The position numbers were made by a program, and so were the translations under genes. From Cryomorphaceae bacterium (GTDB lineage: Bacteria > Bacteroidota > Bacteroidia > Flavobacteriales > Schleiferiaceae): a stretch of DNA of 34,051 nt. Below, piece after piece: positions 10,021 to 32,322 of this stretch. Positions within the stretch are counted from its first letter, which is position 1, and every line of letters starts with the position of its first letter. The notes beneath the pieces were generated by a model, which saw only the letters and a program-made list of their open reading frames with translations, was not told the DNA's origin and ran no database searches. The stretch covers positions 82,275-116,325 of the forward strand of contig PXCF01000139.1 of assembly GCA_003566715.1 (NCBI GenBank), read 5' to 3'.

Positions 10021-11607
10021 TTACTTACTCATACGGTAAGGCTTAAAGCGTTTTTGTTTCGGTTGTTTGGGTTTTTTACGTCGCTTGAGGTCGCTTTGCA
10101 TTCCCAAACGATCCATGGCGCAACGGAATCCGATGTAGTCGGTTGATTGCTCTTGGTGAAGGAATCGGCGTGTACCCGGACTAACATAGTACTGACGGTC
10201 TTTCCAGCTGGCACCTTTGTACACGCGAACATCATCGCCAATTAAGGTTGTTTCACCATGACCATACATGACTGGACCTTCCTCCGGACCATCGTCGCTG
10301 TCATAGAAAATACTGGACTCCAGATCTCCATCTTGATAGTCACGATAATCTGCTTGTTGATAATTTCTGCGGTCAAGGTTTTCTTCTTCCGTTACATCGC
10401 GAACAGGAAGCTGTCCAGGTAAACGGCGAATGTTCCCGTCTTCATCAGTTTGAGGCTCGATGAGCATTTCAAGAGCGCCGATGCCTTGATAATCTGAATC
10501 CCAAGTCTCAAATTCATTACCGCGATAAGCACGGAAGTCACTCACGTCCTCAAAGTTTAGTGGGCGATACACGTCCATTACCCACTCAGCTACGTTACCT
10601 TCCATGTCGTATAAACCATATGAATTAGGTGGGTAGAACATCACTTGCATGGTTATATCAGCTTGGTCATTAAGCCAGCCACCGAGACCCATGTTATCAC
10701 CACGTCCTCTTTTAAAGTTACCTAACATATCACCCTGAGAGCGTCCATCTGATTTACGCATGGAGTTTGAGTTCCAGGTAAACTTGTTGCCATCAGTAAG
10801 ACGTTCAAATTCACGGTTACCAATGTTGCCGTAAGCAGCGTATTCCCACTCAGCTTCTGTTGGTAGACGATATTTGGGTAGAAGAATACCATCTTCAATT
10901 CTTGCGGGTCGGCCTTCACGTCCGGCAAATTGCGAATTGTGACGGACATCTTTAAGTCCCTTTTTGTTTTGTTGGGTGTATTCACCTTGCATATAAAGGT
11001 ACACTTCAGAGTTGAAGTGATCTGCATCTTGTTGATCGGGCATGTGGTTAAGAACCCCTTTGTCGATGAGAATTTGCTCATTGACGCGGTCGGTACGCCA
11101 AGATGCGTATCTCATGGCTTGTACCCAGTTAACGCCAACAACAGGGTAAAGGTTATAGGCTGGGTGACGAAGGTAATTTTCTACGTAAACCTCGTTGTAG
11201 GCTAGTTTGTCTCTCCATACCAAAGTATCAGGAAGGGCGCCGGTGAAGATTTCCGGGTAATATTCAATATCGAATACTCTTTCCAACCAATACAGGTATT
11301 CGCGATAGTCGAGGTTGGTAACCTCACTTTCGTCCATGTAAAAAGAAGATACAGTAACGCGTCTAGGTATATTGTTCCATTCGCGGTAAAAGTCTTCTTC
11401 TACACGCCCCATGGTAAATGTACCACCTTCTACAAATACCAGTCCCGGACCAGTTTGCTGTCCTTTGTAGTTTAGGTTGGCCATAAAACCACCATTTTTC
11501 TTGTCATTGATTTTCCATCCAGTCGTTTGAGATGCTTTTTTGCTACATGAAACTGTAACAAAAGCTGTGGAAACCAGTAGTGCCAGGAAGAGTTTATTCA
11601 TCTTCAT
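10021..11607 (-). CDS. gldJ: Gliding motility lipoprotein GldJ
   Basis: GldJ is an outer-membrane-associated lipoprotein of the formylglycine-generating-enzyme (SUMF1) fold, a paralogue of GldK/PorK. In F. johnsoniae it is needed for gliding and for T9SS function and stability of other Gld proteins. The 528-residue product has a signal peptide with lipid-site cysteine 21 (VTVSC), then the family blocks TGPGLVFVEGGTFTMG, GALPDTLVWRDKLAYNE, NYLRHPAYNLYPVVGVNW and RLPTEAEWEYAA, and near the end YIGFRCAMDR. I do not see the cysteine pair of true formylglycine enzymes, as expected for this structural branch. The C-terminus is strongly basic. It follows the porP/sprF gene by 69 bases on the same strand and probably shares its transcript. 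Alternative ATG at 11601. Confidence 0.92.
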   Translation of the reverse strand: MKMNKLFLALLVSTAFVTVSCSKKASQTTGWKINDKKNGGFMANLNYKGQQTGPGLVFVEGGTFTMGRVEEDFYREWNNIPRRVTVSSFYMDESEVTNLDYREYLYWLERVFDIEYYPEIFTGALPDTLVWRDKLAYNEVYVENYLRHPAYNLYPVVGVNWVQAMRYASWRTDRVNEQILIDKGVLNHMPDQQDADHFNSEVYLYMQGEYTQQNKKGLKDVRHNSQFAGREGRPARIEDGILLPKYRLPTEAEWEYAAYGNIGNREFERLTDGNKFTWNSNSMRKSDGRSQGDMLGNFKRGRGDNMGLGGWLNDQADITMQVMFYPPNSYGLYDMEGNVAEWVMDVYRPLNFEDVSDFRAYRGNEFETWDSDYQGIGALEMLIEPQTDEDGNIRRLPGQLPVRDVTEEENLDRRNYQQADYRDYQDGDLESSIFYDSDDGPEEGPVMYGHGETTLIGDDVRVYKGASWKDRQYYVSPGTRRFLHQEQSTDYIGFRCAMDRLGMQSDLKRRKKPKQPKQKRFKPYRMSK

Positions 11608-11676
11608 AATGTCAATTTTTTGGCGATTGTGCTTTGTTTGTGTTTAAACGTCGGGAAAAGGTTGTTATGAGTATAA

Positions 11677-12669
11677 CTAAAACTTAGGACATTTTATTGT
11701 CTGAGTCTTTTTGCGTCTTTCCGGACATGGGAATTCGTAGACAACACTGATTTCGTGTGCGCCACCTGCGCCCATAGAAACTTTATTGACGGTGTAGTCG
11801 AAACTGTATCCGATTCTCATTGGTAAATCATCGGGAGAGAAACCCAATAATACAATGACCGCATCGGGATTGATACTGGCATGTCTGTAGGCCAATCCAC
11901 CGGTAAGAACACTGTAGTTAAAAGAAACACCTCCAAAAAACTGTTCAAACTCCCCTTGACGCTGGTAAACAAAATTTGGAATCAATGATGTTTTCTCTTC
12001 ACCTACATATCGTTGTCTTCCCAAGGGAATATTTGCACCGGCGTGAACGGTTGCCTTAAACGGTAAACGACTTTCGCTAAAGAAACGCTCATCCGGTTCT
12101 GTTAAGTGATGACCAGCTATACCAACATAAAAGTTTTCCGAGTAACCAATAAAACCAATACTTAAATCAACGTGAGTGTTTACTTCATTGGGAGGTCTTT
12201 GTTCATTGGTTTCCAAAACAAAACCAAACAATGGATCTATCTGATCCGGGAAGTTTAGGTTATCCCAATTGATGCTTCGAGAGCGTACCGTAGCTTGAAA
12301 ACCTGCTAGTACAGAAAATTTCCTGGTTACAGTTAGGTGATAGGAATAAACGCCACTAAACTCGGTCAAATTTAACGCGCCATCACCAGCCATATCTCTC
12401 ATGGCTAAGAATCCTAACCCACCGTTAATGTTATCTACGTATTGGTCGTAGGAAGCACTAAATGTTTGGTATACATTTAAAGCAGGAAACTGATTCCTGT
12501 AATTAAGGTGTACCTTCGGACATCGACCAACACCTGCAAAAGCCGGGTTGAGATAGATAGGGTTGGCGTAGTATTGAGAAAAGTGAGGGTCTTGTGCTTT
12601 GACCTCAGGCGAAATAGCAAATGCCATAACGCAAAACAATATAGCCTTATTCCATAATTTTCGTCTCAT
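11677..12669 (-). CDS. PorP/SprF family T9SS outer-membrane protein
   Basis: This family forms outer-membrane beta-barrels linked to the T9SS. PorP is part of the P. gingivalis system, and SprF is needed for secretion of the adhesin SprB in F. johnsoniae. The 330-residue product has a signal peptide ending near VKAQ and then the family start DPHFSQYYANPIYLNPAFAG. NYRNQFPALNVYQTFSASYDQ, LGFLAMRDMAGDGALN, a run of alternating strands, and the later LPMRIGYSFDYTV follow. It is the first gene of a minus-strand unit with gldJ. SprF genes are commonly found next to a giant adhesin gene; here there is none, and the partner is gldJ, which recalls the porP-porK order. Confidence 0.9.
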   Translation of the reverse strand: MRRKLWNKAILFCVMAFAISPEVKAQDPHFSQYYANPIYLNPAFAGVGRCPKVHLNYRNQFPALNVYQTFSASYDQYVDNINGGLGFLAMRDMAGDGALNLTEFSGVYSYHLTVTRKFSVLAGFQATVRSRSINWDNLNFPDQIDPLFGFVLETNEQRPPNEVNTHVDLSIGFIGYSENFYVGIAGHHLTEPDERFFSESRLPFKATVHAGANIPLGRQRYVGEEKTSLIPNFVYQRQGEFEQFFGGVSFNYSVLTGGLAYRHASINPDAVIVLLGFSPDDLPMRIGYSFDYTVNKVSMGAGGAHEISVVYEFPCPERRKKTQTIKCPKF

Positions 12670-13083
12670 CTGCCTATGGTTGTCAATTTAAGTTTTTCTA
12701 GCCAGTAATGCCTTGTTCAAGCATGTTTTGGTAATAGTTTCGGGTCTTATTTCAAACGACAATGTTACGAATAAATTTTAATTCAACGATAATTTTTTGA
12801 GAAATTTCGGGATATTCAAATAAGTGTTTTTTGTCAAGTGTATGAAAAAGAGGTGTTAACGGTAAACTTTTTTTATGAAGTCTCTCGTTTTAAAGATGTG
12901 TTTTTAACATTTGTCATCACTTGTAAGGACCAAAAAAGTTAAATTAATCATCATTTTTACGGTAATGAATTGCCCATGTGTTTATACTAGGTGTTTTTGC
13001 ACATTAAAATATAAAATGGTTTTGTTTGATGAGGTGGATGTTCCGTAAACATTTAGCCATTGTTTTTATTAGATAGGTGAGGT

Positions 13084-13140
13084 CACAAACATGTCCTTTT
13101 AGTACCTCTGTTTTAGCACAACAATGTTTGTGTTTTTTTT
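13084..13140 (+). terminator. Terminator-like hairpin upstream of porU
   Basis: CACAAACAT (13084-13092) pairs perfectly with ATGTTTGTG (13124-13132) across a 31-base loop, followed directly by eight T (13133-13140). No gene on the plus strand precedes it for more than 3 kb. It may therefore end a small RNA or attenuate a longer porU leader. The long loop weakens the case. Confidence 0.4.
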
Positions 13141-13154
13141 ATAGTGCTTCACAC

Positions 13155-13162
13155 TAACTTTG
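13155..13162 (+). promoter_or_regulatory. Promoter -7 element of porU
   Basis: TAACTTTG matches TAnnTTTG exactly, 35 bases before the porU ATG. A TTG at 13128-13130 lies 24 bases upstream, slightly longer than the usual spacing, and falls inside the 3' arm of the hairpin at 13084-13132. Confidence 0.5.
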
Positions 13163-13197
13163 TCGTTTGATACGTTTAAAAAAGCAAATCAATAGTA

Positions 13198-16100
13198 ATG
13201 GTTAAACATCTTTCTGCTTTTCTTTCGCTTATATTTATATTTTCCTTCGGTCAAAGCTCTGCACAAACGAATACTGTAAGCTTTGATATCAATTGGGAAG
13301 CACCCGCCAAAGATCTAGAAGGTACTGTGTTTAAGTGTGAAGATTGCTTTTCTTTAAAGCCAAGTAACATACCTGCTGTTGAGCTAATCGTTCCCCTAGA
13401 AGAAGCATCAGATATCCAGTCTTTTAATGTATTGGTGAGCGATTATAAAAGATTGAATAACGAAGAGGAAAAGGAGGTTTCTTACTGGGAAGAATCGGAC
13501 TTGTCTGGTTACGAAGCAATAGTGACCACTGTCAACGGCAAGCCTCATTTACGAGCTGTTATTCCGGTTGTTCGAAAGGATGATAGTAATCGCTGGATTA
13601 AGGTGGATAAAATGTCGGTTAGTTATCGCTTGGCTGCTAAGACAGAAACATCCAGAAAGTCTTTTAGATCCCAGAGTGTTCTGGCTTCCGGAAATTGGTA
13701 TAAAGTATCTGTCACTAAAGATGGGGTGCATAAAATTACACCTGAGTTGTTGCGGGAGCTCGGCGTGTCGGGTTCTGTGTCTTCAAATAATGTTCGTGTA
13801 TACGGCAATCGCGGAGGTATGTTGCCGGAGCGCGTCGGAGACCCCTTTGTTGACGACTTAGAAGAAATTCCCCTTGCCATGTTTGACGGAGGTGACGGTC
13901 AATTCGACGGGAGTGACTACGCTCTTTTCTTTGCCAAAGGACCTCATCAATGGAGCTATAATTCTCAAAATAATAGATTTGTTCACCAATACAATATTTA
14001 CAGTGACGTCAATTATTATTTTATCAGAATAGGAGGAAATGGGAAACGCATTGCCAATATACCGACTTCTGGTGCAGCCAGCAATCAGACGGCTACAACC
14101 TTTGATGATTTTGATTTTATTGAGGAGACCAAAGTCAACCTTCAACGCACAGGAAGATTGTGGTTTGGAGATGTGTTTGATTTCAATCTCTCCTATAATT
14201 ATAACTTTAGCTTTCCCAATGTTGTCACCAGCGAGCCAATCAAGATTCAATTCCGTGCCGCCGCAAGAACCAGAACCCCAGGCGTTTTTCTAACGGTCAA
14301 TCACCAAGGTAGCCAGGTATTACAATTGAATCTTTCTCCGTTTGACCCGAATCCTGATGCACAAATTTTCGCTACTTTAAATGCTACTGAAGGAAGTTTT
14401 TTAGCTAATGGAGGAAACGTGCCGTTAACGGTTACACTCAACAATCAAGTGAACCCGGCAGCTACTGCTTGGTTAGATTTCATTGCGCTCAATGCCAGAC
14501 GGTCTTTGATCTTTGTGGGAAATGAGTTGATATTTAGAGATGTAAACACGGTCGGTAACGGAAATGTAACGCGCTTCGTCATCGATAACGCGCCATCATC
14601 GGCTGTGCTGTGGGATGTAACAGACCCTTTAAATACCTCCGAACTTACGCTGAATAGAACTGGTAATCAGGCAAATTTCACGGTGGAAACCGATTCGCTT
14701 CGGACATTTGTCATGGTGAATGGTTCAAATTTTCCAGTACCAAGGGCGCAAGGTGCGGTTGAAAACCAAAATCTGCACGGTATGTCGTCTCCCGATATGC
14801 TGATTATCAGTCATCCTAGGTTTATCGGTGCGGCCGAGCGTTTGGCTCAATTTAGAAGACAGCACAATGGGTTTGATGTGAAAATTGTTACCCCAGAGCA
14901 GATTTACAATGAATATCACAGTGGCGTGCAAGACATCAGTGCCATTCGAAACTTTATTAAGTCATTGTACGTAAAAGCCCCGGATGGTGCTGGATTGAAG
15001 TATGTCTGTTTGATGGGTACTGCTTCTTACGACTATAAAGATGTGGAGCCCAACAACACCAATTTTGTGCCTGTCTATCAATCATTTGCCAGTCTGTCGC
15101 TGCGCAACTCATTTATTGCCGACGATTTTTATGCCTTTTTAGATGAAGGTGAAGGGATTTCACTAACCATAAATACGTTAAATGTTGCTCTAGGTCGTAT
15201 AACGGTTAGAACCTCTGCCCAAGCCAATACCGTAGTAGATAAAATTATTCGCTACGAAACCCACCCCGATAGATTTGGTGCTTGGAGAAGTAGAATCATG
15301 ATGGTTGCCGACGATGTCGATGATGCTTGGGAGAGAGAGTTTATGGATTTCAGTGAGCGGATAGCGGATACCATTACCAATAACCATCCATTCTACAATA
15401 TAGTAAAAGTTTATGCAGATGCTTTTCAACAGGTTTCTACCGCTGGAAGTCAGCGCTATCCCGATGTAGAGGCAGAGATTTTTCGACGGGTACAAAATGG
15501 CGTTTTTATTACCAACTTTATTGGCCATGGTGGAGAAACAGGTTGGGCGCAAGAACAAATTTTACGGCTGGAACAAATTAATAATTGGTCCAACCTAGAT
15601 CGTTTGACCATTTTTGTAACCATCACTTGTGATTTTAGTCGCTTTGATGAAGTCTGGCGAATAAGTGCAGGGGAACAAGCACTGCTTAACCCACAAGGGG
15701 GAGCCGCTGCGCTTCTCAGTACAACGCGACAGGTTTTTGCATTTCCGGCACAAGTGCTTAACGTGTTGTTGTTTCAGGTTTATGTCGATAAGGTCAGGTC
15801 GGGAAAATATACTCTGGGAGATTGGATGAAAGACACGAAAAACATCACCAACAGTTCAGTAACCATAGACTTTGCTCTCTTAGGGGATCCGGCAACAACG
15901 GTGTCTTTTCCCGAGTATGATGTGGTGACGGAAGGAATGCGCGACATGTTGCTTGACCAGCCAACCGATACCATTCGTGCACTTGGTAAAACCAACGTTA
16001 CGGGGAGAATTGCCCAACGCAGTAATGGCGTTCTGGTGAGTGGCTTCAATGGAGAAATGGACGTGTCTGTCTTTGATAAACCCGTTCAAAGACAAACCTT

Positions 16101-17004
16101 AGTCAATGACGGTGTTGGCGACCCGTTTGTCTTTACGACACAGACCAATGCGCTATACAGAGGTAGAGTGAGTGTAACCGGAGGTAGATTTGACTTTACC
16201 TTTATAGCACCGGTAAACATCAACTTTAGTTTTGGTCCAGGTAAGTTTAGCTACTACGCGGCCTCCGGAGGTTCAGAAGCAGCGGGTGGTGATAATACCC
16301 CAATCATTGGTGGACTCGATACCAATGCCAGACCGGATGAAGAAGGCCCGGAAATTGAGCTCTACATGAATGATGAGTCCTTTGTGTTTGGTGGGATGAC
16401 CAATGAAAACCCCGATTTGTTTGCCGTGTTGTTTGACTCGTCAGGCATAAACACGGTGGGCAACAGCATCGGACACGACATCGTTGCCACCCTTGATCAC
16501 CAAACCGAAAATGCCATTGTGCTCAACGACTATTATACTGCTGAGCTAAACTCATTTAGGCGCGGAAGCATCCGCTATCCATTTTTCAACCTAGAGGAAG
16601 GCCCTCATCATTTGTCCCTCAGAGCTTGGGATGTGCACAACAATCCTTCAACGGCACAAACCGAATTTGTGGTGGCTGCATCGGCCGAGTTGGCGCTTAA
16701 ACACGTACTCAATTACCCCAACCCATTTACCACACGAACGAATTTTCAATTTGAACACAACCGACCTAACCAACCGCTGGAAGTCATGGTGCAAATATTC
16801 ACCGTAAGTGGAAGATTGGTGAAAACCATCCAGGCCAATGTATACAGTCAGGGCAACCGGGTGGCGGACGATTTGCCTTGGGATGGTTTGGACGATTTTG
16901 GTGATAGAATAGGTAAGGGCGTATACATTTATCGACTCAAAGTGCGGTCAACCCTTGACGATGCTTATGCAGAAAAAATGGAAAAACTCGTAATTTTGCG
17001 CTAA
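13198..17004 (+). CDS. porU: T9SS C-terminal signal peptidase / sortase PorU
   Basis: PorU is the gingipain-type (C25) protease at the cell surface that removes the C-terminal signal from T9SS clients and attaches many of them to surface lipopolysaccharide. The 1268-residue product has a signal peptide (to about residue 23, SSAQ) and a long beta-rich N-terminal part. The C25 catalytic domain (about 535-905) runs from MLIISHPRFIGAAERLAQFR through GHGGETGW, with catalytic histidine 777, and TITCDFSRFD, with catalytic cysteine 811. A C-terminal T9SS-type domain follows (LNYPNPFTTRTNFQF to the end), which in known PorU is kept rather than cleaved. Its partner PorV is encoded next. The promoter is probably at 13155. 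Length fits the family (1150-1300). Confidence 0.95.
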   Translation: MVKHLSAFLSLIFIFSFGQSSAQTNTVSFDINWEAPAKDLEGTVFKCEDCFSLKPSNIPAVELIVPLEEASDIQSFNVLVSDYKRLNNEEEKEVSYWEESDLSGYEAIVTTVNGKPHLRAVIPVVRKDDSNRWIKVDKMSVSYRLAAKTETSRKSFRSQSVLASGNWYKVSVTKDGVHKITPELLRELGVSGSVSSNNVRVYGNRGGMLPERVGDPFVDDLEEIPLAMFDGGDGQFDGSDYALFFAKGPHQWSYNSQNNRFVHQYNIYSDVNYYFIRIGGNGKRIANIPTSGAASNQTATTFDDFDFIEETKVNLQRTGRLWFGDVFDFNLSYNYNFSFPNVVTSEPIKIQFRAAARTRTPGVFLTVNHQGSQVLQLNLSPFDPNPDAQIFATLNATEGSFLANGGNVPLTVTLNNQVNPAATAWLDFIALNARRSLIFVGNELIFRDVNTVGNGNVTRFVIDNAPSSAVLWDVTDPLNTSELTLNRTGNQANFTVETDSLRTFVMVNGSNFPVPRAQGAVENQNLHGMSSPDMLIISHPRFIGAAERLAQFRRQHNGFDVKIVTPEQIYNEYHSGVQDISAIRNFIKSLYVKAPDGAGLKYVCLMGTASYDYKDVEPNNTNFVPVYQSFASLSLRNSFIADDFYAFLDEGEGISLTINTLNVALGRITVRTSAQANTVVDKIIRYETHPDRFGAWRSRIMMVADDVDDAWEREFMDFSERIADTITNNHPFYNIVKVYADAFQQVSTAGSQRYPDVEAEIFRRVQNGVFITNFIGHGGETGWAQEQILRLEQINNWSNLDRLTIFVTITCDFSRFDEVWRISAGEQALLNPQGGAAALLSTTRQVFAFPAQVLNVLLFQVYVDKVRSGKYTLGDWMKDTKNITNSSVTIDFALLGDPATTVSFPEYDVVTEGMRDMLLDQPTDTIRALGKTNVTGRIAQRSNGVLVSGFNGEMDVSVFDKPVQRQTLVNDGVGDPFVFTTQTNALYRGRVSVTGGRFDFTFIAPVNINFSFGPGKFSYYAASGGSEAAGGDNTPIIGGLDTNARPDEEGPEIELYMNDESFVFGGMTNENPDLFAVLFDSSGINTVGNSIGHDIVATLDHQTENAIVLNDYYTAELNSFRRGSIRYPFFNLEEGPHHLSLRAWDVHNNPSTAQTEFVVAASAELALKHVLNYPNPFTTRTNFQFEHNRPNQPLEVMVQIFTVSGRLVKTIQANVYSQGNRVADDLPWDGLDDFGDRIGKGVYIYRLKVRSTLDDAYAEKMEKLVILR

Positions 17005-17080
17005 TATTGCAAATTGAATTGAAAGTTTTGCGTAGACGCAATTTCGTGCTCAAATCAACGTTTCACTTAGATAAATGACA

Positions 17081-17088
17081 TAATTTTG
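17081..17088 (+). promoter_or_regulatory. Candidate -7 element upstream of porV
   Basis: TAATTTTG matches TAnnTTTG exactly in the 180-base gap after porU. It would give porV its own transcript with a leader of about 90 bases. The AT-rich context raises the chance of a random match. Confidence 0.35.
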
Positions 17089-17184
17089 TGATGAATAACA
17101 AAAATATGTTTAACCTTACAATATTAATAACACCATTTTACACCCATGCAGTGTGAATTAATATCAACAGAATTGACGCGTAGA

Positions 17185-18351
17185 ATGAATATTCCCCATC
17201 GTTTATTTGTCATGTTATTTATGTTGTTGACAACATCTGTCGGCGCCCAATTAAATACAATTGACAGAAATGTGGTTACCACCGCTGTTCCCTTTTTGGC
17301 CATTTCGCCTGATTCTAGGAGTGGTGCCATGGGTGACGTAGGTGTAGCTACCAGCGCCGATGCTAATTCCATTCACTGGAATCCTGCCAAGCTCGCCTTC
17401 TTAGAAGATGGCGCGCGTTCTTTTGCCTTGTCTTATACGCCATGGTTACAGCAGTTGGTTCCCGATATCAACTTGGCTTACCTGTCGTACGCCCATCAAT
17501 TAGATAAAAACCAAGCCTTTGCCGTAGATTTTCGCTTCTTTAGTCTGGGGGAAATTCAATATACGGATCAGCAGGGCCTCGATATCGGCACTTACTCTTC
17601 TAATGAATTTGCATTGAGTGGTGCCTATGCCCTCAAACTTTCAAGAAATCTCTCGGCTGGGGTGGCTTTGAGGTATATTTATTCAAACCTAACTCAAGCT
17701 GCTGGCGCACAAGCCATCGGTCAGAACATTACACCCGGACAGTCTTTTGCATCGGATGTTAGTTTGTTTTACGAAGGCGAGCGCTTTGTGATGGAAGGTG
17801 GACAAACCGGACGCTTTTTGGCCGGATTAAACATATCTAACCTCGGAACGAAAATCCGCTATACCGAAACCACGCCATCGGACTTTATTCCTACCAATCT
17901 TCGCTTAGGTGCCGGGTTCATTTGGGGCATAGACCAATATATCGATCTCGGGTTACACTTGGAGGCCAATAAGTTGATGGTGCCTACACCGCCTCTTCGC
18001 GATAATGAAGGTAATATTATTGCCGGAATGGAAAATGATGTGCCTTTCTTTCAAGGCGTATTTCAATCATTTTACGACGCTCCCGGAGGGTTTACGGAAG
18101 AAATGCAAGAGGTTGTTATTAATGCCGGCGTTGAAATGTGGTACGACCAAAAGTTTGCCCTTCGCGCAGGTTACCAGCACGAAGCCATCGATAAAGGTGG
18201 ACGTCAATACGCTACGTTGGGATTGGGCTTGCGTTTTAATGTGTTTGGCCTAGACTTTTCATATCTAATTCCCACGACAAGAGTGCGTAATCCTCTGGAA
18301 AACACCTTGCGTTTTACCTTGTTCTGGAACCTTCATAAAGCTGAGTCTTAA
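17185..18351 (+). CDS. porV: T9SS outer-membrane protein PorV (LptO)
   Basis: PorV is an outer-membrane barrel of the FadL-like superfamily. It receives clients leaving the secretion pore and passes them to PorU. The mature protein begins after GAQ near residue 21, with the family block FLAISPDSRSGAMGDVGVATSADANSIHWNPAKLAF, and continues as alternating barrel strands to the end (LRFTLFWNLH). I chose the ATG at 17185 because it gives a compact signal peptide (MNIPHRLFVMLFMLL). The frame is open back to 17146, which would place 13 non-hydrophobic residues in front. The 388-residue length suits the family. It lies downstream of porU and directly abuts cdd. In F. johnsoniae porU and porV are also adjacent. 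Confidence 0.95.
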   Translation: MNIPHRLFVMLFMLLTTSVGAQLNTIDRNVVTTAVPFLAISPDSRSGAMGDVGVATSADANSIHWNPAKLAFLEDGARSFALSYTPWLQQLVPDINLAYLSYAHQLDKNQAFAVDFRFFSLGEIQYTDQQGLDIGTYSSNEFALSGAYALKLSRNLSAGVALRYIYSNLTQAAGAQAIGQNITPGQSFASDVSLFYEGERFVMEGGQTGRFLAGLNISNLGTKIRYTETTPSDFIPTNLRLGAGFIWGIDQYIDLGLHLEANKLMVPTPPLRDNEGNIIAGMENDVPFFQGVFQSFYDAPGGFTEEMQEVVINAGVEMWYDQKFALRAGYQHEAIDKGGRQYATLGLGLRFNVFGLDFSYLIPTTRVRNPLENTLRFTLFWNLHKAES

Positions 18352-29061: not shown

Positions 29062-32000
29062 ATGAGTAGAGTTCATAGAATAATAATTGTGTTGATGCTG
29101 GGGATTCTTCAGCCAATAAGTGCACAGTTTTTCTATGGCACCTACATGGATTTCGGAAAAAATCGTGTCCAATTTACGGATTTTGACTGGAATGTATACC
29201 GACTGGATCAGCTGGACGTGTACTATTATGCCAACGATCGAGTGCTGCCAAGAAAGGTGGCGCTGATGACGCAGAAAAACATTTCTTCTTTACAGCGTCA
29301 GCTAGAAACCAGTTTTGATGGACGTGTTCAGGTTATTCTTTTTACTACACTTACAGACCTAAAACAAAGCAATCTCATCCCAATAGATGACATTCCGTTT
29401 AATACCGGTGGGGTCACACAAATCGCCGGCAGCAAGATATATTTATACTTTGACGGAAATTATCAAGAACTCGAGCAGCGCTTGCGAAAAGCGCTTGCGG
29501 AATTGATGATTACTTACATTATGTATGGAGATCTATCGGAATCCATCAGGAATAGCACGCTACTCAATTTGCCCGATTGGTATTTAGATGGACTGGTGTC
29601 TTATCTCTCAACTCCTTGGACGGTAGAAATCGACCGTGAAATGCGGGAAGGTATTTATACCCGTCGTTTTAAAAGGTTTAACGCACTCACCGGCGATGAA
29701 GCAGAGATTGCCGGTCATGCACTTTGGCATTTCGTTGCCGAGACTTATGGGAAGAGTGTGATAAGGAATATCCTTTACATGACCTTGGTTAACCGCAACG
29801 TAGAAACAGGTTTTCAGTACATTTTGGGCATAGAAATGGGCCAGCTAATCAAAAATCTTCAAGCCTACTACCGAGGGCAATATCAGCAAATGATTGACAA
29901 TGATAAGGTAGAAGGAGAGGAATTAAAACGCAGTAGGAAATCGCGTGAGTTTGCGCATATTGCCAGCACGGCTAATGGAAAACACATTGCATATGCAGAA
30001 CACAACCTCAACGAATTTCGGGTGTATATCTACGATGTGGAAAAAAAGAGGCGGAAGCGCATCTACAAAGGTGGATATAAAATAGCCACCTATCCTGACC
30101 GGAGTTTCCCCATTATGGATTGGCATCCCAACAATCGCTTATTGGCCTTTATGACGGAAGAAAAAGGGTTTATATGGTTGTATTATTACGATACGGAAAA
30201 AAAGAAACTCGACAAACGCCCTTTTTATGGTGTCGATAAAGTCAATCAATTTCAATATTCACCGGATGGTCGTCAATTTGTTTTATCAGCAGTCAAAAAT
30301 GGACAGTCTAATATCTTTTTGTATAACATCCTTAGTACTTCCTATAAGCCTCTAACTTCAGATGATTACATAGATCTATGGCCGTCTTTTATCAATGGGG
30401 GAAGAGATGTGGTTTTTACCAGTGATCGGCCCGATGAGCAACTGACACCTGGAAAACGCGTGGATTCATTCAGCCGCGCACAAAATGTATTCATTTACAA
30501 GTTGTCGGAGGGAGCAGAGCAAACGCTCAGACGTGTCACCAATACATCAAATGTCAGCGAGGTTTCACCCACAGAATGGAAGCCAGGGTATCTTCATTAC
30601 ATCCGCAGATATAATGGTGTACGCAATGATTTTCTTGTGGTCATGGACTCAAATATTGCCTTTGTAGATACCATTACGCACTATAATTATACGTTTGAAA
30701 GTTACCCTATTTCAGATTTAGATAGAAATATTGAGCACGCAGCCTTAGGTGGAGATAACATGTTTTATGTGGTGAAGAGAAAAAAACGATTTCGTATTTT
30801 TAAAGCAAATCGAACGCACCCTTCACGTTTCTATACAGAGTCTAGTGTTCCGGAATTAGAAGCGAGAGATGTTCAGGAAGAGGAGGATATGGATGATGTT
30901 GGGTTGAGGTACATCAGTGTTCCAGACATTTCATACGAAATAGATATCACCAATTACCAATTCGATGAAGATGTACTTCGCGATTTGGGACTCCATCAGG
31001 AGCAGATTAAAGAACGAGAAAAAAAGCTCAAAGAACAAAGACCGGTACTCAGTTCGCGTACCATCGAGGAGCCAGTCACCCAAGAAGCGTTTGAGATGCC
31101 ACCGAGAAGAAACTATTTTTTGTCTTTTTATCAAGACGAATTGACGTTTCAGTTTGATAACACCTTTTTAAATCCACAATATCAGCCATTTACCGGCAGG
31201 GCTGATGTGGGTATGCTCAATCCGGGTTTTAATGGATTACTTCGGGTAGGCGTCACGGATTTGCTCAATGATTACAAAGTTACTTTGGCGGCTAGAACCA
31301 ATTTCACACCATTACCCGGAACCAGTATCAGTCCCAATCACGAGATATTTGTTGGTTTTCACAATTACAAACGCCGACTAAACCAAGAGACTTTTCTCTA
31401 TAGAAGAAGTCACTTAAACGTAATGAGTTTTGCGGAAATTGAGCGCTTCTTTAGTCACGAAGTCATGCATCAATTGACTTATCCTTTGTCACCGGTGAAA
31501 GCGCTGCGGATTTCGGGTGCAGTGCGAATGGATCACCAAGTATCACTTTCACGAGAACAGATAAGCTTGCAAGCTCCTACGGAATTTCAGTATTTTGGCG
31601 TCATGAGAGCGGCATATATTTACGATAATGTTCGCACATTGGGTATTAATTTGTGGGAGGGAACCCGTTATAAATTGTTTACCGAATACTATCGTCGTTT
31701 GGATGAATCGCCCAGTGGATTACATACGTTGGGTATAGATGTTCGTAAATACAATACGGTGCACGGGCCTATCATCTGGGCAAACCGCTTTGCGGCAGGT
31801 ACTTCGTTTGGATACGAAAAGTTGGTGCATTTTCTAGGCGGGGTTGACAACCAGTTTGCACCCCAAATCAACGAAGCGACCCCCATTGCTTTTGAGGAGA
31901 ATTATGTTTTTCAAACACTGGCAACCAATATGCGAGGTTTTTTTCAAAATGCTCGCAATGGCAACAATTTTTCAGTTATTAATTCGGAAGTTAGAATTCC

Positions 32001-32322
32001 GTTGTTCCGCTATTTGTTAAAACGCCCTATTTTAAACGAATTCGTTAATAATTTCCAAGTTGTTCCATTTTTTGATGTAGGTACGGCGTGGAATGGATTT
32101 AACCCTTATGGAGAGCAAAACGCCATTAATTCACAAGTGATTGATCGAGGTAATATACGCGTGATTATCGATAGCAATAAAGAGCCAATTATTGCTGGGA
32201 CCGGCGTTGGACTTCGCACCAAGCTATTTGGTTACTTCGTTCGCGTGGATTGGGCCAAGGGCATCGAAGATGGCATATTCTTGCCGCGCGTTTTCCATTT
32301 TTCTATTGGAACCGATTTTTAA
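29062..32322 (+). CDS. Outer-membrane protein with inactive peptidase-like, TolB-like propeller and barrel domains
   Basis: I recognise parts rather than a named protein. The 1086-residue product has a signal peptide (cleavage near residue 22, ISAQ). Residues about 45-280 resemble a peptidase MA-like (gluzincin) domain: LRKALAELMITY at 141-152 sits where HExxH is expected but keeps only the glutamate, and LPDWYLDGLVSYLS at 170-183 matches the following WxxEGL motif with aspartate. Residues about 295-560 form TolB/WD40-like repeats (IASTANGKHIAYA, MDWHPNNRLLAFM, FQYSPDGRQFVLSA, WPSFINGGRDVVFTSDRP). A charged linker (about 600-680) leads to a C-terminal region of alternating strands ending in HFSIGTDF, as in BamA-like outer-membrane barrels. 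It would display the propeller in the periplasm. Function unknown; it stands alone between promoters. Confidence 0.7.
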   Translation: MSRVHRIIIVLMLGILQPISAQFFYGTYMDFGKNRVQFTDFDWNVYRLDQLDVYYYANDRVLPRKVALMTQKNISSLQRQLETSFDGRVQVILFTTLTDLKQSNLIPIDDIPFNTGGVTQIAGSKIYLYFDGNYQELEQRLRKALAELMITYIMYGDLSESIRNSTLLNLPDWYLDGLVSYLSTPWTVEIDREMREGIYTRRFKRFNALTGDEAEIAGHALWHFVAETYGKSVIRNILYMTLVNRNVETGFQYILGIEMGQLIKNLQAYYRGQYQQMIDNDKVEGEELKRSRKSREFAHIASTANGKHIAYAEHNLNEFRVYIYDVEKKRRKRIYKGGYKIATYPDRSFPIMDWHPNNRLLAFMTEEKGFIWLYYYDTEKKKLDKRPFYGVDKVNQFQYSPDGRQFVLSAVKNGQSNIFLYNILSTSYKPLTSDDYIDLWPSFINGGRDVVFTSDRPDEQLTPGKRVDSFSRAQNVFIYKLSEGAEQTLRRVTNTSNVSEVSPTEWKPGYLHYIRRYNGVRNDFLVVMDSNIAFVDTITHYNYTFESYPISDLDRNIEHAALGGDNMFYVVKRKKRFRIFKANRTHPSRFYTESSVPELEARDVQEEEDMDDVGLRYISVPDISYEIDITNYQFDEDVLRDLGLHQEQIKEREKKLKEQRPVLSSRTIEEPVTQEAFEMPPRRNYFLSFYQDELTFQFDNTFLNPQYQPFTGRADVGMLNPGFNGLLRVGVTDLLNDYKVTLAARTNFTPLPGTSISPNHEIFVGFHNYKRRLNQETFLYRRSHLNVMSFAEIERFFSHEVMHQLTYPLSPVKALRISGAVRMDHQVSLSREQISLQAPTEFQYFGVMRAAYIYDNVRTLGINLWEGTRYKLFTEYYRRLDESPSGLHTLGIDVRKYNTVHGPIIWANRFAAGTSFGYEKLVHFLGGVDNQFAPQINEATPIAFEENYVFQTLATNMRGFFQNARNGNNFSVINSEVRIPLFRYLLKRPILNEFVNNFQVVPFFDVGTAWNGFNPYGEQNAINSQVIDRGNIRVIIDSNKEPIIAGTGVGLRTKLFGYFVRVDWAKGIEDGIFLPRVFHFSIGTDF

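Follow-up and report, generated by a model that had tools for sequence, protein, structure and literature searches.

What is a peptidase-like domain without a recognisable zinc site doing at the head of an outer-membrane barrel protein? The question is raised by a gene in a 34,051-nucleotide stretch of a Cryomorphaceae bacterium genome (assembly GCA_003566715.1, contig PXCF01000139.1, positions 82,275 to 116,325 of the forward strand), hereafter the window. A preliminary description of this gene, made from the sequence without database searches, proposed a dead metallopeptidase-like domain, a TolB-like propeller and a barrel, and suggested an assembly or binding scaffold. We find that the gene's product is a conserved protein of the outer membrane whose BamA-type barrel follows a metal-protease domain, now inactive, and a propeller.

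Architecture of the protein

The open reading frame at 29062-32322 on the plus strand encodes 1086 amino acids with a signal peptide. Its features are as follows.

29062..32322, + strand: whole gene, comprising signal peptide, pseudo-gluzincin domain, TolB-type propeller, linker and Omp85 barrel (open reading frame, conserved relatives, model)
29062..29124, + strand: signal peptide, residues 1-21 (ISA / QFFYG), without a lipobox cysteine (sequence reading)
29125..29916, + strand: N-terminal domain, residues 22-285, gluzincin peptidase fold without the zinc site (model, Foldseek, VIA-align)
29434..29448, + strand: residues 125-129, strand immediately preceding the active-site helix, candidate edge strand for substrate binding (secondary structure in both models)
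29488..29502, + strand: KALAE, residues 143-147, positional equivalent of HExxH (alignments to intact-site relatives)
29587..29589, + strand: D176, equivalent of the third zinc ligand, the glutamate of WFxEGLAEY (alignment)
29917..30816, + strand: TolB-type beta-propeller, residues 286-585 (NCBIfam TIGR02800, 5.8e-16; PD40; VIA)
30817..31128, + strand: low-confidence linker, residues 586-689 (Pfam scan, model)
30937..30966, + strand: linker motif EIDITNYQFD, residues 626-635 (conservation in alignment A1)
31129..32322, + strand: Omp85-superfamily barrel, residues 690-1086, ending DF, plus stop codon (Pfam PF01103, VIA, motifs)
31930..31941, + strand: MRGF, residues 957-960, counterpart of the Omp85 L6-loop VRGF/Y (conservation)
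32068..32091, + strand: FFDVGTAW, residues 1003-1010, second Omp85-type motif, FxDxG (conservation)

A full-length AlphaFold2 model, built from 29 aligned sequences (mean pLDDT 76.8, pTM 0.55), begins with an alpha/beta domain, followed by the propeller, then a linker predicted with low confidence and finally the barrel; how the three domains are placed relative to one another is uncertain at this pTM. The reading frame and its coordinates stand as originally described, and so do the signal peptide and the succession of the three parts. Directly after the signal-peptide cleavage site lies a conserved QF-YG...FGKNRVQ segment. We infer that the N-terminal domain and the propeller reside in the periplasm.

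The C-terminal part matches Pfam PF01103 (Omp85) at 1.2e-5, above the gathering score; in a whole-genome family search the PF01103 match of this protein was 27.3 bits over cut-off. The barrel closes in the model and, as had been noted, the protein ends in phenylalanine (C-terminal DF). It comprises about 16 long strands (about 692-1083), as in the 16-stranded barrels of the BamA, FhaC and TamA type, and Foldseek and VIA-align grouped it with BamA from Flavobacterium johnsoniae (9n2f, Z 24.6), FhaC (24.4) and TamA (22.1). Two motifs, which we take from established knowledge to be the Omp85 L6-loop motif (MRGF) and the FxDxG motif (FFDVGTAW), are both present, with R958, G959, F1003, D1005 and G1007 invariant in alignment A1. 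The barrel therefore belongs to the Omp85/BamA superfamily rather than being a generic one, an identity that the preliminary description had missed.

The propeller superimposes on TolB with Z 23.5 (VIA-align of the full-length model) and matches TIGR02800, confirming the TolB-like assignment. The score of 58.4 bits against an equivalog cut-off of 343.15 separates it from TolB of the Tol-Pal system itself, and the PD40 match in the Pfam scan fell slightly below its cut-off. Between propeller and barrel, the Pfam scan of the protein and the full-length model show only the low-confidence linker and no POTRA domain. In the linker motif, Y632 and F634 are invariant in alignment A1, and DxxNYxF also appears in the consensus of a mixed alignment. 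EIDITNYQFD, which is partly common to intact-site relatives, is a candidate partner-binding site in this otherwise low-confidence region.

A gluzincin fold without its zinc site

Since fold searches with the full-length model barely tested the N-terminal domain, we modelled it alone (95 aligned sequences; pLDDT 82.5, pTM 0.80). Foldseek and VIA-align matched it to the Vibrio and Grimontia collagenases (M9, Z 15.9), and further to M30 lugdulysin (Z 14.1), M1 aminopeptidases (about 13) and M61 peptidases; it also resembles an M1-like TFIID subunit (7edx_B, Z 12.6). The domain has the gluzincin fold, as predicted, and carries neither HExxH nor a glutamate as third ligand. Peptidase_MA was not matched in a Pfam scan of the window protein, and the assignment of the domain comes from its relatives and the fold search; relatives that retain the site match Pfam Peptidase_MA_2 (PF13485).

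These intact-site relatives, which fall into two types (I and II), fix the register of the site. Their HHELVH aligns with R142-K143-A144-L145-A146-E147, and their WFNEGLAEY with WYLDGLVSY. The dead HExxH site had been placed at AELMI (146-150); its actual equivalent is KALAE (143-147), and AELMI lies one helix turn further along. The replacement of the WxxEGL glutamate by aspartate had been read correctly (D176). Positions 143, 144, 147 and 176 are H, E, H and E in all 36 type I and all 28 type II intact sequences, whereas E180, conserved in the intact relatives, and Y215-R216, invariant in type I, are gone from the window protein. Both histidines, the catalytic glutamate and the third ligand are missing too; the zinc site is lost, and zinc catalysis is very unlikely, as had been supposed.

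The loss extends to this type of protein across the class, answering a point that the preliminary description had left for checking. HExxH occurs in 0/80 named loci and in 0/76 dead sequences, the catalytic glutamate in 0/76, and a histidine at position 147 in 1/76. Glutamates at two of these positions are commoner (E147 in 32/76, E176 in 27/76).

The strand before the active-site helix (residues 125-129) is a candidate substrate-binding edge strand by analogy, and the segment aligned to it is also conserved in the intact-site relatives.

Distribution, a probable single loss and constraint

Relatives aligning over most or all of the length were found in 36 of 60 near genomes, and the N-terminal domain had matches in 205 of the 247 sampled genomes of the class, some of these being an intact-site type II paralogue. 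The 80 named loci comprise dead-type relatives only, mostly from Cryomorphaceae/Schleiferiaceae-like and other Bacteroidia MAGs, with the isolates Thermaurantimonas aggregans and Phaeocystidibacter luteus among them. The sampled genomes of two families of the same order (f3, probably Flavobacteriaceae, and f6) are without the gene, indicating that it is dispensable for outer-membrane assembly in general. A full-length relative (34% identity) also lies on a contig titled Candidatus Saccharibacteria (L163). Candidatus Saccharibacteria are not expected to have an outer membrane, so this contig is probably mis-binned.

All 76 Bacteroidia-type sequences used for a phylogenetic tree are without the motif, whereas HELVHA...EGLAEY is retained by 36 orthologue-like sequences that come from the phylum's other classes. 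The tree, calculated from the N-terminal domain and propeller with the catalytic columns masked (76 dead and 64 intact sequences; unrooted), grouped the dead sequences into one clan with support 1.0 and misplaced none among the 64 intact sequences. The 36 type I intact sequences formed another clan (support 0.97), and type II largely a third group. In each domain, dead proteins resemble type I more closely than type II (N-terminal domain, 25.3 versus 18.9% identity). In this sample, the window's class is the sole source of dead forms, and every type I intact form belongs to another class of the phylum. Since the dead forms make up one clan and the two forms are restricted to different classes, the simplest history on this unrooted tree is a single loss of the site, which likely took place at the root of the class Bacteroidia or close to it. 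It is possible that a third paralogue is involved instead.

The type II intact paralogue (HELVHAFQY...LWMVEGMAEYL) occurs in Bacteroidia families f17, f19 and f126 (loci L293, L296, L298, L299, L300, L301, L309 and L313), and two f19 genomes (G120 and G093) carry both dead and intact types. A wording by which the site is dead throughout Bacteroidia was consequently discarded as too broad.

We compared the window protein with a 92%-identical relative. Nonsynonymous difference was 0.023 in the N-terminal domain, 0.030 in the barrel, 0.052 in the propeller and 0.109 in the linker, at a synonymous difference of about 0.77; constraint was judged by relative nonsynonymous divergence only, because synonymous sites are saturated, and no dN/dS ratios are given. 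The N-terminal domain has the lowest value of all parts, which indicates that it is under selection. The dead domain is the most constrained part of the protein and is not decaying.

Gene neighbourhood and TamB

In most of 20 intact-type loci, TamB and then RNase R lie immediately upstream on the same strand with short gaps (TamB called by PF04357, RNase R by Pfam RNB). A custom profile built from those TamBs detected TamB near 14 of these 20 loci, a non-random set picked from strong matches and mostly one per family, and near none of the 80 named dead-type loci (49 of them at least 15 kb) or of 20 further ones, 0/100 dead-type loci in all. Across 71 intact-type genomes, PF04357 was within 12 kb in 18, from 10 families; TamB is on the same strand in 16 of these, mostly 2.1-2.7 kb upstream. 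Five further divergent TamBs, missed by PF04357, were detected by the custom profile, raising the count to at least 23/71. By our estimate, random placement of TamB would give roughly 0.5. In several genomes (G179, G107, G298, G180) the nearby TamB is the only one detected. The TamBs of the window genome lie on contigs other than the window's (family search).

In two genomes of family f31 (L229, L231), a compact cluster holds BamA (by PF01103), two Skp-like genes, LpxD, LpxC, LpxA, RfaE-type genes, TamB, RNase R and the intact-type gene, the gene names being read from sequence.

The window gene itself is flanked upstream by a mannose-1-phosphate guanylyltransferase-like gene and downstream by a large secreted protein, as named by sequence reading. 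Downstream, 43 to 45 of the 80 dead-type loci (L101-L180) continue in the same orientation with a small membrane gene (TauE/SafE-like) and an amidohydrolase of M20 type. Upstream, a gene with a metallo-beta-lactamase fold is encoded on the opposite strand in 26 of these 80 and in 15 of 20 class loci; these names, too, come from sequence only. The shared TauE-like/M20-like neighbourhood of the dead-type loci gave no functional lead. Elsewhere in the window (10021-18351) are type IX secretion-like genes named in the same way, GldJ/GldK-like, PorP/SprF-like, PorU-like and PorV-like, and PorU- and PorV-like genes are a few genes off in 5 to 7 of the 20 class loci.

A proposed role in outer-membrane assembly

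Outer-membrane biogenesis is suggested by the combination of an Omp85 barrel with TolB-like and gluzincin-like modules, in a family whose relatives are linked to TamB and sometimes also to BamA and genes for lipid A. We give an even chance to the reading that the protein is a TAM/BAM-like Omp85 assembly factor, in which an ancestral quality-control protease became a non-catalytic client-binding domain in the ancestor of Bacteroidia. In this proposal, the barrel would be preceded in the periplasm by two modules, a TolB/BamB-like propeller and a gluzincin-fold domain. The gluzincin domain of the ancestral form, which persists outside the class, would probably have carried out quality control as a protease resident at a TamB-served assembly site, comparable to BepA, the separate M48 protease that assists BAM in E. 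coli. In the Bacteroidia ancestor the zinc ligands and catalytic residues would have been lost once. The dead domain would then most likely hold unfolded or incoming barrel or lipoprotein segments by edge-strand pairing without cutting them, while the propeller would dock partners and the barrel would provide the insertion gate. By analogy, the dead version could have retained such a holding role, the strand before the active-site helix still being present. The Bacteroidia protein may likewise still partner TamB and act in outer-membrane assembly today. The earlier suggestion of a scaffold for assembly or binding agrees with the Omp85 barrel and with the operon that intact-site relatives share with TamB; with the gluzincin fold present and the barrel closed, it is supported, still as a proposal.

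Several observations weigh against an assembly role. The link to TamB is confined to intact-type relatives, and there to about a third of the sampled genomes. RNase R is a cytoplasmic enzyme; since it sits between the two genes, the TamB linkage could be partly housekeeping. No POTRA was detected, although assembly Omp85s usually dock their partners through such domains. Families f3 and f6, as noted above, do without the gene.

The same parts could instead make an envelope scaffold or stress sensor, in which propeller and dead peptidase bind a partner such as a peptidoglycan-associated lipoprotein, LPS or a secretion component, and the barrel is a mere anchor with no insertase activity. The TolB-type propeller and the missing POTRA would suit this, as would the M1-like domain of the TFIID subunit (7edx_B), an inactive domain that acts as a scaffold. 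We consider it unlikely, given that alignment A1 shows no variation in the R958-G959 pair or the FxDxG motif, both features of functional Omp85s, that the barrel is almost as constrained as the N-terminal domain, beyond the needs of a passive anchor, and that relatives share an operon with TamB. The resemblance to secreted collagenases, the nearest peptidase folds, raises the thought of a type Vd-like protein whose N-terminal domains are carried to the surface by its own barrel, leaving the dead peptidase to bind environmental polymers there. PlpD, an Omp85 protein, was long described in this way, but its N-terminal enzyme domain is now shown to stay periplasmic (PMC11116518); moreover, two folded domains of about 560 residues would need to cross, and similarity to the collagenase fold is generic to gluzincins, all of which makes self-display very improbable.

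Strong constraint on the N-terminal domain, together with the frequent E147 and E176, might also be expected of a cryptic enzyme using other chemistry or another metal in the same cleft. That is extremely improbable: no conserved polar set replaces the ligands, and within the clan positions 143, 144, 147, 176, 180, 215 and 216 either vary or hold small/hydrophobic residues. Finally, loss of the zinc site could mean that the domain is decaying baggage on a functional propeller-barrel, a notion made scarcely credible by its retention at full length across the class and by its nonsynonymous divergence, the lowest of all parts.

If the assembly-factor reading holds, one polypeptide unites jobs that E. 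coli divides among BamA, BamB and BepA, and its intact and dead counterparts, being otherwise comparable, could be used to ask what a proteolytic step contributes to outer-membrane assembly. It is also an example of a class-wide pseudoenzyme maintained under strong selection. A bolder possibility, which we regard as doubtful, is a third kind of TAM: in several lineages of the phylum other than Bacteroidia, TamB would be partnered in the outer membrane not by TamA or TamL but by a protease-propeller-Omp85 protein able to insert or destroy clients at one site, from which Bacteroidia would later have derived the protease-dead chaperone encoded in the window.

Comparison with known systems

The propeller-barrel half of the protein is a known combination. 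WD40-Omp85 proteins were described by Heinz and Lithgow in 2014 as a non-POTRA architecture and likened to a BamA-BamB fusion (PMC4104836), and the window protein shares with them a TolB-like WD40 propeller N-terminal to an Omp85 barrel and no POTRA. As POTRA domains are absent, the Omp85 claim amounts to membership of this branch only. A gluzincin domain, its loss and a TamB operon do not figure in that description, in whose text the word "peptidase" is absent, though the domain may be present in those proteins unremarked. A search of literature that takes in few subscription journals returned no description of the gluzincin fusion, its site loss or the TamB operon; one text match for gluzincin, WD40 and Omp85 (PMC8134430) concerns unrelated proteins. 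What appears new is therefore limited to the fused pseudo-peptidase and its context.

TAM surveys list TamA, TamL and BamA as partners of TamB, and TamB without TamA or TamL was noted in 2015 (PMC4494059); the present family would, if the proposal is right, supply a candidate Omp85 partner for such genomes. TamL and TamB form a separate pair that is essential in F. johnsoniae (PMC12045153). TamA and TamL have an Omp85 barrel too, and TamB is a frequent neighbour of the intact-type gene; the window protein differs in having no POTRA, in not being a lipoprotein and in not lying near TamB.

BepA, a zinc peptidase at BAM, promotes or degrades its client and uses an edge strand for both (PMC8423444). 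It too has a zinc-peptidase fold and works in the periplasm, where it assists outer-membrane protein assembly both in a chaperone-like way and as a protease, but it is a separate, active enzyme with a TPR domain, whereas the window domain is fused to an Omp85 barrel and inactive. Members of the Peptidase MA superfamily (PF13485) have the same fold; the window protein is without their catalytic residues and does not match the model. TolB of Tol-Pal has the same propeller fold, while the window propeller scores far below the equivalog cut-off and is fused to other domains. PlpD, a patatin-Omp85 protein, also joins an N-terminal enzyme-fold domain to an Omp85 barrel; it differs in having a patatin, a POTRA and an active enzyme, and in being without the propeller.
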